Below, piece by piece: positions 1,319 through 9,442 of a stretch of 9,442 bases of DNA. A model generated the notes under the pieces. It was not told where the DNA came from. It saw only the letters and a list, made by a program, of their open reading frames with translations, and searched no databases. The stretch lies in contig PATE01000068.1 in the NCBI GenBank assembly GCA_002712305.1, positions 7,409 to 16,850 of the forward strand, read 5' to 3'. The position numbers were made by a program, and so were the translations under genes. The DNA comes from Gemmatimonadota bacterium (GTDB taxonomy: Bacteria; Latescibacterota; UBA2968; UBA8231). Within the stretch, counting starts at the first letter, position 1; the number at the start of each line of letters is the position of its first letter.

Positions 1319-2986
1319 ATGCAGGACAACGCGGAGAACCCGACCGACGACGCGCAGCAGGCGATGGACACTGCGCAGCCTCAACCCGAGGCTGCCGTGA
1401 CATCGTCAGTCAAGCCAGATGCTGAGGCGGGCGCTGAAGCGGCACCCGCAGCCTCAGAAGAGGCTGTATCAGCAGCTTCGAACGCCCCGTCTGCGTCGGT
1501 TGACTCAACTACAGAGTCCAATGCCTCGACGTCGGTGCCATCGGTGGCCACGGAAAGCACCTCTCCAGTCGTTGCGAGTCCGGAACCCGCTCAGACCCCC
1601 GAAGCTCAGCCTGCCAGTTCGGACGGGCAGACCTCACCCGAGTCGAGCCCCGTCGTCGATGCAGTTGATGCCTCTCAGCCTGCCTCAACAGCGGCAGAAG
1701 CTGCTGTCCCGACCCAGCCAACGACCGACGCGACGTCTACTACGCAGGTTGATGCACCAGCCGCTCAGGTCGAGGAATCAGCTGAACAGGCAGAAGAGCC
1801 TGCTGCGCAGGTAGACATGGGAAAGCTGCTCGAAGGCGAGAATGTCACCCCGGGCGCACAGATCAAGGCCGGTGAGCGGGTCAGTGGCGTGTTGGTGCGG
1901 GTAGGAGACGAAAACAGCTTCGTCGATTTTGGCGGGCGTTCGGAAGGGATTCTGTCGACGAGCGAATTGAAGGGGGAAGATGGCGAGTTTGCCTTCGCCG
2001 TGGGCGACCCCCTCGAGGCTTTCGTTGTCAGCGCCGCTGACGAGGTCCGTCTGTCCCGCTTCCTCAAAGGCGAGGATCGCGAGGCCGATATGCTCTACAA
2101 GGCCTTCAAGTCGGGCACTCCCGTCGAAGGCCGAGTCATGGCGGTCAACAAGTGGGGGCTGGGCGTTGAATTGGCAGGTACACGTGCCTTCTGCCCGATT
2201 TCCCAGATCGACACGTCCTTCGTGCAGAATCCGGAGGAATACCGTGACAAGACGATGCAATTCAAGATCATTCGATTCAGAGATCGCGGTCGTAGCATCG
2301 TCCTGTCTCGTCGAGCACTGCTGGAAGTAGAGCAGGAGAAACATGCCACTACGGTTCGGGCACAGATCGCCGTCGACGAGGTGCTCACCGGAACCGTGAC
2401 ACGCCTGGAGTCGTTCGGTGCCTTCGTCGACCTGGGTCATGGCGTGGAGGGCTTGGTACACGTCTCGGAATTCAAGCATGAACGTGTCGGCCATCCACAA
2501 GAGGTCGTCGAGTCCGGACAGGAAGTGAAGGTGAAGGTTCTTGAGGTCAAGAGTCTGGGCAGCCGTCGTAAAGAGCGGATCTCGCTGAGCCTGAAGGCTC
2601 TGGAGGCGGATCCCTGGGGTGAAGTTCGGGCCCAGTTCCCGCAGGGCAGCGTGGTGAACGGCAAGATTGAATCTCTCGAATCGTATGGTGCCTTCGTCGA
2701 GCTTGCCGAGGGGGTACGTGGGCTCGTCCACGTGTCTGAAATGGCTGATAAGCGCGTGAATCATCCACGAGACGTGGTCTCCGTCGGCGACGAGGTGAAG
2801 GTTGCCGTCGTCGAGCTCGACAACCGTCGCAAGCGGCTGCGCCTTTCGATTCGCCGCGCAGAGCAGATGGAGGGTGAGGCCAATCTCAAGGAATTCACCG
2901 ACCGGCAGCAGCGAGAGCAGGAGGAGGCCGGTAGCGCCAATTCGGCCATGCTCGAGGCACTGAAACGCGCACAACTCATCGGCTGA
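1319..2986 (+). CDS. S1 RNA-binding protein with four S1 domains and a long disordered N-terminus
   Basis: This 555-residue protein is related to ribosomal protein S1 and probably binds mRNA or ribosomes in the cytoplasm. Residues 1-165 are low-complexity, rich in Ala, Ser, Glu, Gln, Pro and Thr, with net acidic character and no predicted fold. Four S1 (OB-fold) repeats follow at about 184-250, 265-333, 353-427 and 442-514. Repeats 3 and 4 are the most canonical, with SFGAFVDL/SYGAFVEL followed by GLVHVSE; repeats 1 and 2 are divergent. A charged tail rich in Glu and Gln (515-555) ends the protein. With four repeats it is smaller than the six-repeat E. coli S1 and could be an accessory paralogue. 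AGGAG at 1301-1305 precedes the ATG by 13 bases, which is rather long. An internal ATG at 1817, behind caggt, would give only the S1 domains. trpB follows after 12 bases, so the genes are probably co-transcribed. Confidence 0.9.
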   Translation: MQDNAENPTDDAQQAMDTAQPQPEAAVTSSVKPDAEAGAEAAPAASEEAVSAASNAPSASVDSTTESNASTSVPSVATESTSPVVASPEPAQTPEAQPASSDGQTSPESSPVVDAVDASQPASTAAEAAVPTQPTTDATSTTQVDAPAAQVEESAEQAEEPAAQVDMGKLLEGENVTPGAQIKAGERVSGVLVRVGDENSFVDFGGRSEGILSTSELKGEDGEFAFAVGDPLEAFVVSAADEVRLSRFLKGEDREADMLYKAFKSGTPVEGRVMAVNKWGLGVELAGTRAFCPISQIDTSFVQNPEEYRDKTMQFKIIRFRDRGRSIVLSRRALLEVEQEKHATTVRAQIAVDEVLTGTVTRLESFGAFVDLGHGVEGLVHVSEFKHERVGHPQEVVESGQEVKVKVLEVKSLGSRRKERISLSLKALEADPWGEVRAQFPQGSVVNGKIESLESYGAFVELAEGVRGLVHVSEMADKRVNHPRDVVSVGDEVKVAVVELDNRRKRLRLSIRRAEQMEGEANLKEFTDRQQREQEEAGSANSAMLEALKRAQLIG

Positions 2987-2998
2987 CACGGTCAGATC

Positions 2999-4291
2999 AT
3001 GAGCCCTACCCCCAACGCCGTTCTCAGCCCTGCCGGCTGGGAGCGGCTTCTATTTCCCACCGACTACGATCCCGATGCCCGCCTCGGTTACTACGGCCCG
3101 TATGGCGGCTGTTTCGTGCCGGAGATCCTGTACACGACGATGCAGGAATTGACCGCCGTCTTCGACCAGGCGCGTCGCGATCCGGCGTTGTGGGCAGAGT
3201 TCGTCAGCGTGATGAGCACCTATTCCAGCCGTCCCACGCCCGTCACACATCTTGAGCGGCTCAGCGAGCGTCTTGGGGGCGCTCAGATCTACCTGAAACG
3301 CGAAGATCTCAACCAGACCGGTGCCCACAAGATCAACAATGTCATCGGCCAGGGACTGCTCATGCGCCGCATGGGGAAGAAGCGGGTCATCGCTGAAACC
3401 GGTGCCGGCCAACACGGCGTGGCCACGGCGACGATGGCCGCGAGATTCGGTCTGGAGTGCACGATCTACATGGGGGCTGTCGACGTGGAACGGCAGCGTC
3501 CGAATGTCTTCTGGATGGAGCAGCTCGGGGCGCGGGTGGTTTCGGTGGAAGACGGTTCAGCAACGCTGAAAGACGCCATCAACGAATGCCTCCGCGATTG
3601 GGCCTTCTCCATGGAGGACACCCACTACGCACTCGGTACCGCTTGCGGCCCCCATCCTTTCCCGCAGATGGTCGCCTGGTTTCAGAGACTCATCGGAGAA
3701 GAGGCCCGCGCCCAGATGGCAGAGGGGCCGGGGCTGCCAGAATGTGTGTACGCGTGTGTAGGGGGTGGTTCGAACGCGACGGGCATGTTTCTCGGATTTC
3801 TCGATGACGAGGTCGAACTGGTCGGCGTAGAGGCGGGCGGTGAGGGGATCGACAGTGGTCGACATGCGGCCCGTCTGGTCGGCGACGATGCCCGACCCGG
3901 CATCGCCCAGGGATACAAGACCTATTTCCTGCAGGACGAGGAAGGGCAGATGCGCCATACCCACTCGGTCTCGGCAGGCCTCGACTATATCGGTGTGAGT
4001 CCGATTCTCGCACACCTCGGCGACACAGGGCGAGTGCGATTCGAAGCCGTTACCGATGACGAGGCGATCGCTGCCCTGCGCCTGCTGATGGAGACGGAGG
4101 GGATCATCGGGGCTCTCGAGAGCACACACGCCGTAGCGGGTGCGATTCGCGAGGCTCCCACGATGAAAAAAGATCAGCGAATCCTGATCAATCTCTCGGG
4201 GCGTGGAGACAAAGATATCTTCACGATTGCAGACGCCCTGGGCGACGACAACTGGCAACAGTTCCTGCGCCGCCGCGGGCAGGGGGCATAA
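2999..4291 (+). CDS. trpB: Tryptophan synthase beta subunit
   Basis: This PLP enzyme condenses indole with L-serine to give L-tryptophan and works in a complex with TrpA. Key elements are present: LKREDLNQTGAHKINN, with the PLP lysine at K111; AETGAGQHG, with the catalytic glutamate E133; the PLP-phosphate loop GGGSNA (255-260); SVSAGLD, with D329; ALESTHA (372-378); and GRGDKD (401-406). At 430 residues it is somewhat longer than the common length of about 400, through an N-terminal extension before GYYGPYGG and a short C-terminal tail. The usual GLDYPGVGPE is replaced by GLDYIGVSPI, marking a sequence subgroup but leaving the catalytic residues intact. No clear Shine-Dalgarno precedes the ATG, so translation may depend on the upstream S1-protein gene, whose stop is 12 bases away. 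The downstream trpA follows after one base. Confidence 0.97.
   Translation: MSPTPNAVLSPAGWERLLFPTDYDPDARLGYYGPYGGCFVPEILYTTMQELTAVFDQARRDPALWAEFVSVMSTYSSRPTPVTHLERLSERLGGAQIYLKREDLNQTGAHKINNVIGQGLLMRRMGKKRVIAETGAGQHGVATATMAARFGLECTIYMGAVDVERQRPNVFWMEQLGARVVSVEDGSATLKDAINECLRDWAFSMEDTHYALGTACGPHPFPQMVAWFQRLIGEEARAQMAEGPGLPECVYACVGGGSNATGMFLGFLDDEVELVGVEAGGEGIDSGRHAARLVGDDARPGIAQGYKTYFLQDEEGQMRHTHSVSAGLDYIGVSPILAHLGDTGRVRFEAVTDDEAIAALRLLMETEGIIGALESTHAVAGAIREAPTMKKDQRILINLSGRGDKDIFTIADALGDDNWQQFLRRRGQGA
4281..4286 (+). promoter_or_regulatory. Shine-Dalgarno that sets the trpA start
   Basis: AGGGGG lies inside the last codons of trpB, six bases before the ATG at 4293. It supports that ATG over the in-frame ATG at 4203, which lies well inside trpB and would add 30 residues unlike any TrpA. 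Confidence 0.7.
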
Positions 4292-6830: not shown

Positions 6831-7667
6831 TCATAGGACCATGAGAATCGATACCGCGCTGACCCCGACGCCGAGTGCCGCCAATCGGCTAAGAGGTTCA
6901 CGCCAGATGAAGTGGGCGCACAGCCCATCGAGGATCACCACCAGACACCCATGGGCCGGGAAGAATCGGGTGCCCTCCAACTGGCTCAGTGCAGTCAGCA
7001 AAACGGCCAGTGCCACAAGATTGTAGATGCCGATGGCACTGCCCATCCACAAGTCACGTGCCTGCGGACGGTATCGGGTCAGCAGGACGATCCCGCCTCC
7101 GAGACCACCGGCTGTTGCCGCACAAAGCATCAGAACGATCAATCGCTGTGAGTCGAGACCGGCATAATGTACCCAACGAAGACAGACCTGGCTCAGCCCC
7201 TGGGTGAGGAAGACGATCGCCGCCGCTGCGAGCAAGGCCCACATGCCCGCATATCGATGCGGAATCGAGGTCTGCGTCGTGAGGCCCACGCCCGCCAGAG
7301 CCAGCAGGATGCCGCATGCCTGCCAGACAGAGATCGTTTCGCCCCACAAGAAAACGGAGGCCACCACGGGACAGAGGATGGCCAGGCGGAAAGCGGTCAA
7401 CACGATACTGACCGGTGCCCGCTCCAGCGCTCGCGTCATCGTCCACATGGAGACGATGAAACTGACGCCCATGCACCCGCCAACCAGCAGGGCCGGTGCG
7501 GTCACCTCCAAGACGCCTTGCACGTGAAGGGCGAGACCCAGGGTGGCGGCCAGAACGACATAGTTGGTCGTCACCACCGTCGGCGCATGACAGCGACGGC
7601 GTTGTGACCACTTGAACAACTGGCCGAAGCCGAAAGAGAGGAAGGACGCCAGGATTAACCAGAACAC
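6831..7667 (-). CDS. EamA/DMT-superfamily permease, ten membrane helices
   Basis: This is a very hydrophobic integral inner-membrane protein of about 278 residues, arranged as two homologous halves of roughly five helices, as in drug/metabolite transporters. The first half closes with the family-typical FLWGETISVWQACGILLALAGVGL region (split here as FLWGE at 106-110 and the Gly-rich helix at 119-129). The second half has the parallel HFIWREPLSRLAALG at 252-266. The substrate is unknown; family members export amino acids, metabolites or drugs. The start is uncertain. The open frame continues to 8252 but would then run antisense through mgtE, and no ATG lies near the first helix. GTG at 7667 is the best conventional start. 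A CTG at 7679 lies 11 bases after AGGTG (7695-7691) and would add four residues. The SDR gene follows 77 bases downstream on the same strand and may share the transcript. Confidence 0.8.
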   Translation of the reverse strand: MFWLILASFLSFGFGQLFKWSQRRRCHAPTVVTTNYVVLAATLGLALHVQGVLEVTAPALLVGGCMGVSFIVSMWTMTRALERAPVSIVLTAFRLAILCPVVASVFLWGETISVWQACGILLALAGVGLTTQTSIPHRYAGMWALLAAAAIVFLTQGLSQVCLRWVHYAGLDSQRLIVLMLCAATAGGLGGGIVLLTRYRPQARDLWMGSAIGIYNLVALAVLLTALSQLEGTRFFPAHGCLVVILDGLCAHFIWREPLSRLAALGVGVSAVSILMVL

Positions 7668-7754
7668 GGGGTAGGACAGTAGGCGGCCACCACCTGGGAT
7701 GCAACCGGCCCGTATATTGTTGCCCTCCCGTCTGTTCTGTCTACGAGGACCTCC
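7668..7754. promoter_or_regulatory. Divergent spacer between the permease and mgtE genes
   Basis: These 87 bases must hold the start signals for both divergent genes. TATATT at 7713-7718 is a five-of-six match to a -10 element for mgtE, but no good -35 lies 16-18 bases upstream. GAGGAC at 7745-7750 is a clear ribosome site four bases before the mgtE ATG. The spacer is too short for a full Mg2+-sensing M-box riboswitch, and none of its landmarks are seen. Confidence 0.4.
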
Positions 7755-8975
7755 ATGTCCAAACGTGTGCACAATGCAGAAGCGGCCGATGTGGTTGATC
7801 TGCACGTGCGGGATGACCGTCGCCGTATCCTGATCGAGACGACACGCGAAGCCCTGCATGGCGACGATGAGGAGACGTTGTGCCTCATCCTGAATGATCA
7901 GCATCCGTCTGATCTGGCCCAGGTATTCCGCGTTCTCGATGCCGACGACCAGCGGCGCACCGTCGAATTGCTGGGTGAACTTGATCGGGCATCGGTAATA
8001 AGAGTCGCAGACGCACTGCGCGACGAGCCGCTCAGCGACATCGTCGATGAGATGGAACCCGACGCCGCCGCTGATGTTCTGGCCAAACTGCCCCACGACA
8101 CGAGCGAACGTGTCCTGGGTCTGATGGAGGAGGGTGAGGCGGACGAGGTGCGCCCGCTCATGTCTCATCCTCAGGACACGGGCGGCGGCATCATGACCTC
8201 TGGCCTGATCGCTGTGAGCGAGCAGGTCACCATCGCAGAGGCGACGCAGCACCTGAGATCCACGGCCCTAGACAACGAGGATCTGCTGGCGGTATTTGTG
8301 GTCGACGCCGACCAGCGCCTCATCGGTGTTGCCTCCCTGCGATCGATGCTTCTGGCCTCGACGGAGGTGACGATGGGGAGCATTGCTGATCAGGAGGTGA
8401 TGCGAGTTCTCCCGCAAATGGACCAGGAGGAGATTGCAGATCTCTTCGCCGACTACAATCTGGTCGTGATGCCCGTCGTCGATGAGGGGGGGCTGACTGG
8501 GCAGGTGACGGTGGACGACATCGTCGACGTGATCCGGGACGAAGCGACGGAAGACATGGTGAGGTTGGCGGCCACCAGTTCTGCCGAGATGGAGGAGCGC
8601 TCGGTGTTCGGCGTGATGCGCAGGCGTCTGCCCTGGTTGCTCCTGTGCCTTGTGGGCACCCTCCTGTCGGGTGGTGTGCTCGAGCACTTCGATCGTCTGC
8701 TGACGGCCATGAGTTCACTGGTCCTGTTCGTTCCCGCCATCATGGCGATGGGGGGTAATTCAGGCATTCAGACCTCCACAGTGACGGTCAGGTCTCTGGC
8801 CACCGGTCGACTGCGGCCGGGGGAAGTGATGCAGGCGCTTTGGCGTGAGCTGCGCGTGGCGATGGGAATGGCCTGTCTGCTGGGGTTGCTCGTGTTCGCC
8901 GTCGCCTGGGTGTGGACCCATGGATCTCGAGTCGGTCCCTGCGAATCGATCCTGCCACCGCTTCAGGGCCTCTGA
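7755..8975 (+). CDS. mgtE: MgtE-type Mg2+ transporter, truncated by a deletion and frameshift
   Basis: MgtE is a dimeric inner-membrane Mg2+ channel gated by cytoplasmic Mg2+ binding. The frame encodes 406 residues against the usual roughly 450. It has the helical N domain (about 38-135, with HPSDLAQVF), CBS domain 1 (141-200, beginning TGGGIMT), CBS domain 2 (about 205-262, with NLVVMPVVDE and TVDDIVDVI), a connecting plug helix (about 265-290), TM1 (about 292-312), TM2 with the pore motif GGNSGIQTST (333-342) and TM3 (about 365-388). After WTHGS the last 15 residues resemble nothing in MgtE. The true C-terminus lies in another frame at 8942-9052. TM4 is missing entirely, so the product should lack the five-helix pore unless this is a sequence error. 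The start is supported by GAGGAC four bases upstream. If the loss is real, the protein is probably non-functional, or acts only as a truncated subunit. Confidence 0.9.
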   Translation: MSKRVHNAEAADVVDLHVRDDRRRILIETTREALHGDDEETLCLILNDQHPSDLAQVFRVLDADDQRRTVELLGELDRASVIRVADALRDEPLSDIVDEMEPDAAADVLAKLPHDTSERVLGLMEEGEADEVRPLMSHPQDTGGGIMTSGLIAVSEQVTIAEATQHLRSTALDNEDLLAVFVVDADQRLIGVASLRSMLLASTEVTMGSIADQEVMRVLPQMDQEEIADLFADYNLVVMPVVDEGGLTGQVTVDDIVDVIRDEATEDMVRLAATSSAEMEERSVFGVMRRRLPWLLLCLVGTLLSGGVLEHFDRLLTAMSSLVLFVPAIMAMGGNSGIQTSTVTVRSLATGRLRPGEVMQALWRELRVAMGMACLLGLLVFAVAWVWTHGSRVGPCESILPPLQGL

Positions 8976-9052
8976 TCACCACCCTCAATGATGTGGTATC
9001 CCTGCTCATCTATTTTGGCGTGGCCCTCTTTGTCTTCTCCTGGATGGCATGA
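8942..9052 (+). pseudogene. mgtE: Out-of-frame C-terminal remnant of mgtE (TM5)
   Basis: In the frame ending at TGA 9050-9052 the sequence reads RIDPATASGPLITTLND, then a hydrophobic helix (VVSLLIYFGVALFVF). This matches the conserved end of MgtE, where a K/R-R-L-G-I/V-D-P-A segment precedes the last helix. It has no start of its own and is in a different frame from 7755-8975. The family normally has about 30 more residues (TM4) between TM3 and this segment. Good conservation and absence of stops imply a recent event or an assembly error. Confidence 0.85.
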
Positions 9053-9442
9053 AACGATCGATGTCGTGGCAGGGGCTGTCTCTGATGGGCTGTTTGCTGA
9101 TCAGTTCCTGTGTCAGCATCAAGCGGCCGGTACCCGATCCGATGGGACAGGTCTCCATTCACATTCGACATCTCTTGCACGGAAGGTCCGGCCCCGATCA
9201 TCGCGACACGCCACGAGATCGTTACCGGCAGTCCATGCTGGTGCGGTTTTATAGGTCTCGTGATGATCGACCGGCCTGGGTCGGACCTCGCGGCGTTCTG
9301 AGCCAGGCTGACCAACTGATTCAGGCCGTCGAAGCGGGGGCTGGCGTGGGACTGCCGGGGGAACTCTATCGGCTCGTCGATCTGCGTGAGGCCGTTGAGG
9401 CGTCCAGAGGCCCTCGTGACGCAGAACACCTTGCACGGGTCG
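9049..9442 (+). CDS. Lipoprotein, N-terminal part of a probable YcbB-like L,D-transpeptidase (partial)
   Basis: The frame is open to the window end, giving 131 residues of an incomplete protein. It starts MKRS, then a hydrophobic stretch ending in ISSC, which fits a lipobox with lipidation at C21, so the mature protein would be anchored in the envelope. After a polar linker, residues 64-109 (LVRFYRSRDDRPAWVG at 64-79, then a helix with QADQLIQAV and GLPGELYRL) resemble the scaffold domain before the catalytic YkuD domain in YcbB/LdtD-type enzymes. Those enzymes make 3-3 cross-links in peptidoglycan. The catalytic domain would lie beyond the window, so the function is provisional. Its ATG overlaps the ancestral mgtE stop as ATGA (9049-9052), implying translational coupling to full-length mgtE. 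With mgtE now ending at 8975, that coupling would be lost. Confidence 0.65.
   Translation, partial: MKRSMSWQGLSLMGCLLISSCVSIKRPVPDPMGQVSIHIRHLLHGRSGPDHRDTPRDRYRQSMLVRFYRSRDDRPAWVGPRGVLSQADQLIQAVEAGAGVGLPGELYRLVDLREAVEASRGPRDAEHLARV

Follow-up and report, generated by a model that had tools for sequence, protein, structure and literature searches.

What has become of the mgtE gene in this window, and did its damage arise in living cells or in the making of the assembly? The window, that is, the whole stretch of 9,442 nucleotides analysed here, corresponds to bases 7409-16850 of contig C89 of the draft genome G000 (4.77 Mb in 146 contigs), and its right end is the end of the contig. A sequence-only reading of the window had proposed that mgtE carries an internal deletion together with a frameshift.

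Two parts of mgtE in two reading frames

The open reading frame at 7755-8975 encodes a product of 406 aa, residues 29-390 of which match positions 22-383 of the 450-position TIGR00400 mgtE model; it also matches Pfam MgtE_N, CBS and positions 1-65 of the 125 positions of PF01769. A fragment in another frame (8912-9052) matches TIGR00400 positions 412-446 and PF01769 positions 95-125. As the E values of these two matches are 6.8e-70 and 5.7e-11, a chance match was rejected and, judged by the model matches, the open reading frame and the fragment are two parts of one mgtE (Table 1). The gene is a clear orthologue of family members (identity up to 59%), in which the MgtE_N and CBS domains are present and a complete PF01769 in one frame is absent, positions 66-94 being missing. 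The sequence-only reading had followed MgtE in the main frame to WTHGS (about residue 391) and to a stop at 8975: the stop stands, but the homology reaches further, to the Cys at 8940-8942. The continuation of a conserved motif and of TM5 in a different frame, also claimed there, agrees with the matches of the fragment ending at 9052, and the ATGA junction to the next gene is present at 9049-9052.

Table 1. Features of the window discussed in the text (window positions).
Feature	Positions	Strand	Remarks
EamA-type transporter gene	6831..7667	-	divergent; left border of the conserved slot
Promoter-like stretch CCCGTATATTGTTGCCCTCCCGTCTG	7709..7734	+	upstream of mgtE; DNA alignment with G001; putative promoter function
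mgtE 5' part	7755..8942	+	in frame; N domain, CBS pair, TM1-TM3, start of the TM3-TM4 loop
Deletion junction CGGTCCCTGC	8933..8942	+	GPC (left edge) in one frame, RSL (right edge) in the other
mgtE 3' part	8933..9052	+	shifted frame; loop, IDPATASGPLITTLND motif and TM5; its TGA stop overlaps the start of the next gene (ATGA)
Out-of-frame tail of the truncated product	8943..8975	+	TGA end
L,D-transpeptidase-like gene, start	9049..9442	+	ldt/ycbB-like; Pfam Scaffold domain; truncated at the contig end, remainder on C62

Size and junction of the deletion

The gap was sized by alignment to relatives, as had been suggested earlier, using 10 relatives with gap-free spacing, taken from the same family and from public MAGs that bear names, at identities of up to 59%. 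In all ten, 38 codons (114 nt) separate the conserved Trp (8913) from the Asp of IDPA (8948), vs 35 nt in the window; 79 bp are therefore missing, a figure that assumes that the ancestor had the family spacing. Since 79 is 1 mod 3, the reading frame is shifted, and TM4 and the flanking loop are removed. The earlier estimate of 85-95 bases, not a multiple of three, was thus right as to the frame and too high as to the size, and the loss of TM4 that it implied is borne out by the alignment with the 10 relatives. That a single-base error is insufficient, as had also been stated, holds as well: 26 codons and one base are absent, which rules out a sequencing error of this kind.

At the protein level, the ten bases of the junction are compatible with either edge of the gap. 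In the left reading, V-G-P-C at 8931-8942 still fits the relatives (the closest has V-A-P-C), and in the right reading, R-S-L at 8933-8941 fits the conserved F-R-[AS]-[LV] segment. Among the shifted-frame triplets of the same gene, 4 of 651 score as well on the right side and none of 651 on the left. The junction would be the footprint of a ~10-bp direct repeat, both ancestral copies of which are reconstructed from this protein-level fit. A deletion between two such repeats is the simplest and most likely cause: two ~10-bp direct repeats would have flanked the lost segment, and replication slippage or microhomology-mediated deletion between them would have removed the 79 bp. With TM4 lost and the frame shifted, translation would then stop at 8975, and a product devoid of TM4, TM5 and the pore aspartate would not form a working Mg2+ channel.

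The truncated product and the next gene

The truncated product ends 33 bases past the junction and lacks, besides TM4 and TM5, the Asp of TTLND, which is found only in the shifted frame and corresponds in the alignment to residue 455 of the 2yvx chain (473 residues). We take this residue to be Asp432 of T. thermophilus, provided that the first 23 residues of the chain are a tag, which we assumed because the family model has 450 positions. In the T. thermophilus work cited in PMC6533229, the D432A substitution abolishes Mg2+ transport by MgtE. Under the same assumption of a 23-residue tag, the equivalent of this pore aspartate is absent from the product, and MgtE function has presumably been lost in G000. 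The stop at 8975 falls 74 bases short of the next gene, whose start it no longer overlaps, a displacement by which expression of that gene may also be lowered.

Age of the lesion and the slot in relatives

The deletion aside, the divergence of mgtE at conserved columns does not exceed that of intact orthologues (departures: 15-22 in 141-156 columns, vs 11-27 in 150-166), giving no sign of relaxed constraint. Its 5' part contains neither a stop nor a frameshift, and in simulations of neutral drift this frame acquires a stop in 39% of cases at 2% divergence and in 94% at 10%. The lesion is therefore young. The sequence-only reading had called the loss "very recent or artefactual"; the lack of relaxed constraint in the rest of the gene is consistent with this, and of the two we favour a recent real loss, for the reasons given in the Discussion.

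Across the family the genes keep the order trpB ... SDR-EamA (divergent) mgtE-ldt-glgC, interrupted by some gaps where contigs end, and the EamA-type gene reaches 79% identity in the slot comparison. At this slot, mgtE is deleted, gutted or frameshifted in 6 of the 11 genomes compared, G000 counted, and the lesions differ; most of these genomes are draft assemblies, so that single cases may contain errors. A full-length mgtE occupies the slot in G017, G018, G022, G023 and G024, and in G002 and G003 the slot is present with no recognisable mgtE. The mgtE remnants of G001, G007 and G008 are like the window gene in that they lie in the same syntenic slot with the gene ends kept and the interior lost, and unlike its 79-bp frameshift in what was removed. 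G001, the one further genome of the genus, retains EamA, ldt and glgC in position together with the promoter-like stretch (CCCGTATATTnTTGnCCTCCCnTCTG), and more than 1 kb has been lost between intact flanks, leaving ~24 C-terminal codons; in G007 the N and CBS domains were lost in frame; in G008 the in-frame loss runs from the CBS region to TM3 and is accompanied by changes at conserved TM5 residues. As 0.55-0.70 of fourfold sites differ between G000 and G001 in neighbouring genes, a single ancestral lesion common to both is unlikely, since drift over this divergence would put stops in the 1.17-kb frame; the two losses are very probably independent.

Two further mgtE fragments were observed. 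An isolated C-terminal remnant lies away from the slot in the single-contig genome G012 (L072, C1:4500000-4508000, 2886-3058), and in G011 (L073, C154, 9490-9624) a second C-terminal fragment, whose matched domain is reported to contain a stop codon, lies ~2.7 kb downstream of a full-length mgtE.

Assembly of the genome

The end of C89 (window 9356-9442) overlaps C62 exactly over 87 bases (ends of L067 and L066). C89 breaks off inside ldt, and C62 holds the remaining ldt and then glgC; the two are probably neighbouring contigs. Single ambiguous bases are clustered in 44 of 60 sampled stretches of G000, and also in C89 itself (L067, 3628-7408). Such clusters probably mark places at which contigs from different strains were joined, so that gene calls within them need caution, and the assembly as a whole looks composite. 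The pattern resembles that of a published type of pipeline in which per-sample MEGAHIT contigs are merged by Minimus2 with a minimum overlap of 100 bp (PMC5769542); the unmerged 87-bp overlap of C89 and C62 would fit this minimum, and its exactness suggests a k-mer graph assembler. A single scan of genome contigs yielded nothing more closely related to the species.

When ~107 kb of orthologous DNA was surveyed for frameshifts, four candidates emerged, of which two were set aside (one consisted of adjacent paralogues, and one looked like an open reading frame in the wrong frame) and two, on C16 and C59, look like damaged genes. In-frame stop counts (5/74 vs 5/62) did not separate the genomes, and some of these stops were terminal-stop run-ons. 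The gene on C16 (L090, 7093-8177), which looks like a putative endonuclease/exonuclease/phosphatase-type gene, is 73-76% identical to its G001 orthologue, against which it shows one frameshift and two in-frame stops, and is likely a pseudogene. The gene on C59 (L133, 19076-19970) differs from G001 by a change of frame, a single in-frame stop and 45 residues in length, and adjoins a zone of ambiguous bases.

Magnesium supply

The search for a second mgtE or a corA proposed in the sequence-only reading found neither in the G000 assembly, nor did the assembly give an MgtA-type match. G000 has two CNNM-domain genes and Nramp-family genes, one of them of 457 aa on C6, as well as a weak ZIP match below the cut-off; because the assembly is 91% complete, another Mg2+ importer could sit in the missing part. 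Across the family, 7 of 25 genomes give no MgtE match at all, and six (G001, G002, G003, the single-contig G013, G014 and G021) give neither an MgtE nor a CorA match, so that the absence of MgtE is not unusual in this family.

Discussion

Taken together, these results make it probable that mgtE in G000 is a young pseudogene that arose by a 79-bp deletion, most likely between ~10-bp direct repeats, and we infer that the deletion exists in living cells. A recent real loss is favoured over an artefact because of the microhomology at the junction, the position of the site outside the merged zones, and the differing losses at the same slot in relatives. Rather unlikely, in our assessment, is an artefact of assembly or library, in which 79 bp of an intact gene were dropped over a ~10-bp overlap by a false join or by a read that was chimeric or merged in error. 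Ten-base overlaps can indeed come from false read merging or library chimeras, and the overlap seen here is of a compatible size; moreover, the remaining mgtE is fully conserved, the contig ends ~500 bases beyond the junction, the assembly has a composite look, with clustered ambiguous bases in C89 as well, and it contains a few other discrepancies of frame or stop. It would also count against a real loss that G000 is left without an MgtE, CorA or MgtA-type match, though G001, G003 and G013 are likewise without MgtE and CorA. However, ~8.9 kb separate the deletion from the closest group of ambiguous bases, which places it in an unmerged part of the contig; on this ground a merge of overlapping contigs was rejected as its source. 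A k-mer graph assembler, to which the 87-bp contig-end overlap points, would be expected to pass over 79 bp at a 10-bp repeat only if reads carry the junction, and the same gene has been lost in other ways in the same slot, the same genus included.

Within the pseudogene reading, it is conceivable that the deletion is carried by part of the population only, with intact alleles alongside: polymorphism is to be expected of a very young lesion and the clustered ambiguous bases suggest a mixture of strains, but one allele only is present in the assembly, and we hold this sub-case to be possible rather than likely. That the two parts form a functional split or recoded protein, by programmed frameshifting or as a two-subunit MgtE, is highly improbable. 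Both parts retain conserved sequence, but 26 codons are missing, TM4 with them, and no frameshift restores it, which comes close to refuting this proposal; the second part is without a well-placed start of its own, and the arrangement is absent from all relatives compared.

The pseudogene reading agrees with a lineage that can do without mgtE and has repeatedly deleted it at the slot, the downstream L,D-transpeptidase gene being retained. G000 with its first small lesion, G001 with the gene ends only, and more distant relatives that have lost the gene in other ways, in part or completely, would represent gene loss in progress. More tentatively, and with considerable doubt, mgtE may in this family be repeatedly gutted between the EamA-type and L,D-transpeptidase genes by independent internal deletions that spare the promoter and the 3' end because these express the downstream cell-wall gene, Mg uptake having moved to other transporters. 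A family in which several members, including the single-contig G013, are without MgtE and CorA raises the question of the route by which these bacteria import Mg.

Compared with MgtE as known (TIGR00400; PF03448, CBS and PF01769; structure 2yvx), the window gene has the N domain, the CBS pair and TM1-TM3 in one frame; it differs in that TM5 lies in another frame, TM4 is absent with the 79 bp lost, and the pore Asp, by the numbering used here, falls outside the product. A parallel in kind is with bacterial pseudogenes produced by deletion between short direct repeats, with which it shares a frame-shifting loss in an otherwise conserved gene and, as far as the protein-level fit shows, probably also ~10 bp common to both edges. 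There is no essential difference between them, the ancestral repeat copies being here deduced rather than seen. The mgtE of G000 is thus most likely a real, young pseudogene made by a common and ordinary mechanism in a family that loses mgtE repeatedly at a conserved place, and it is this recurrence that is mildly interesting.
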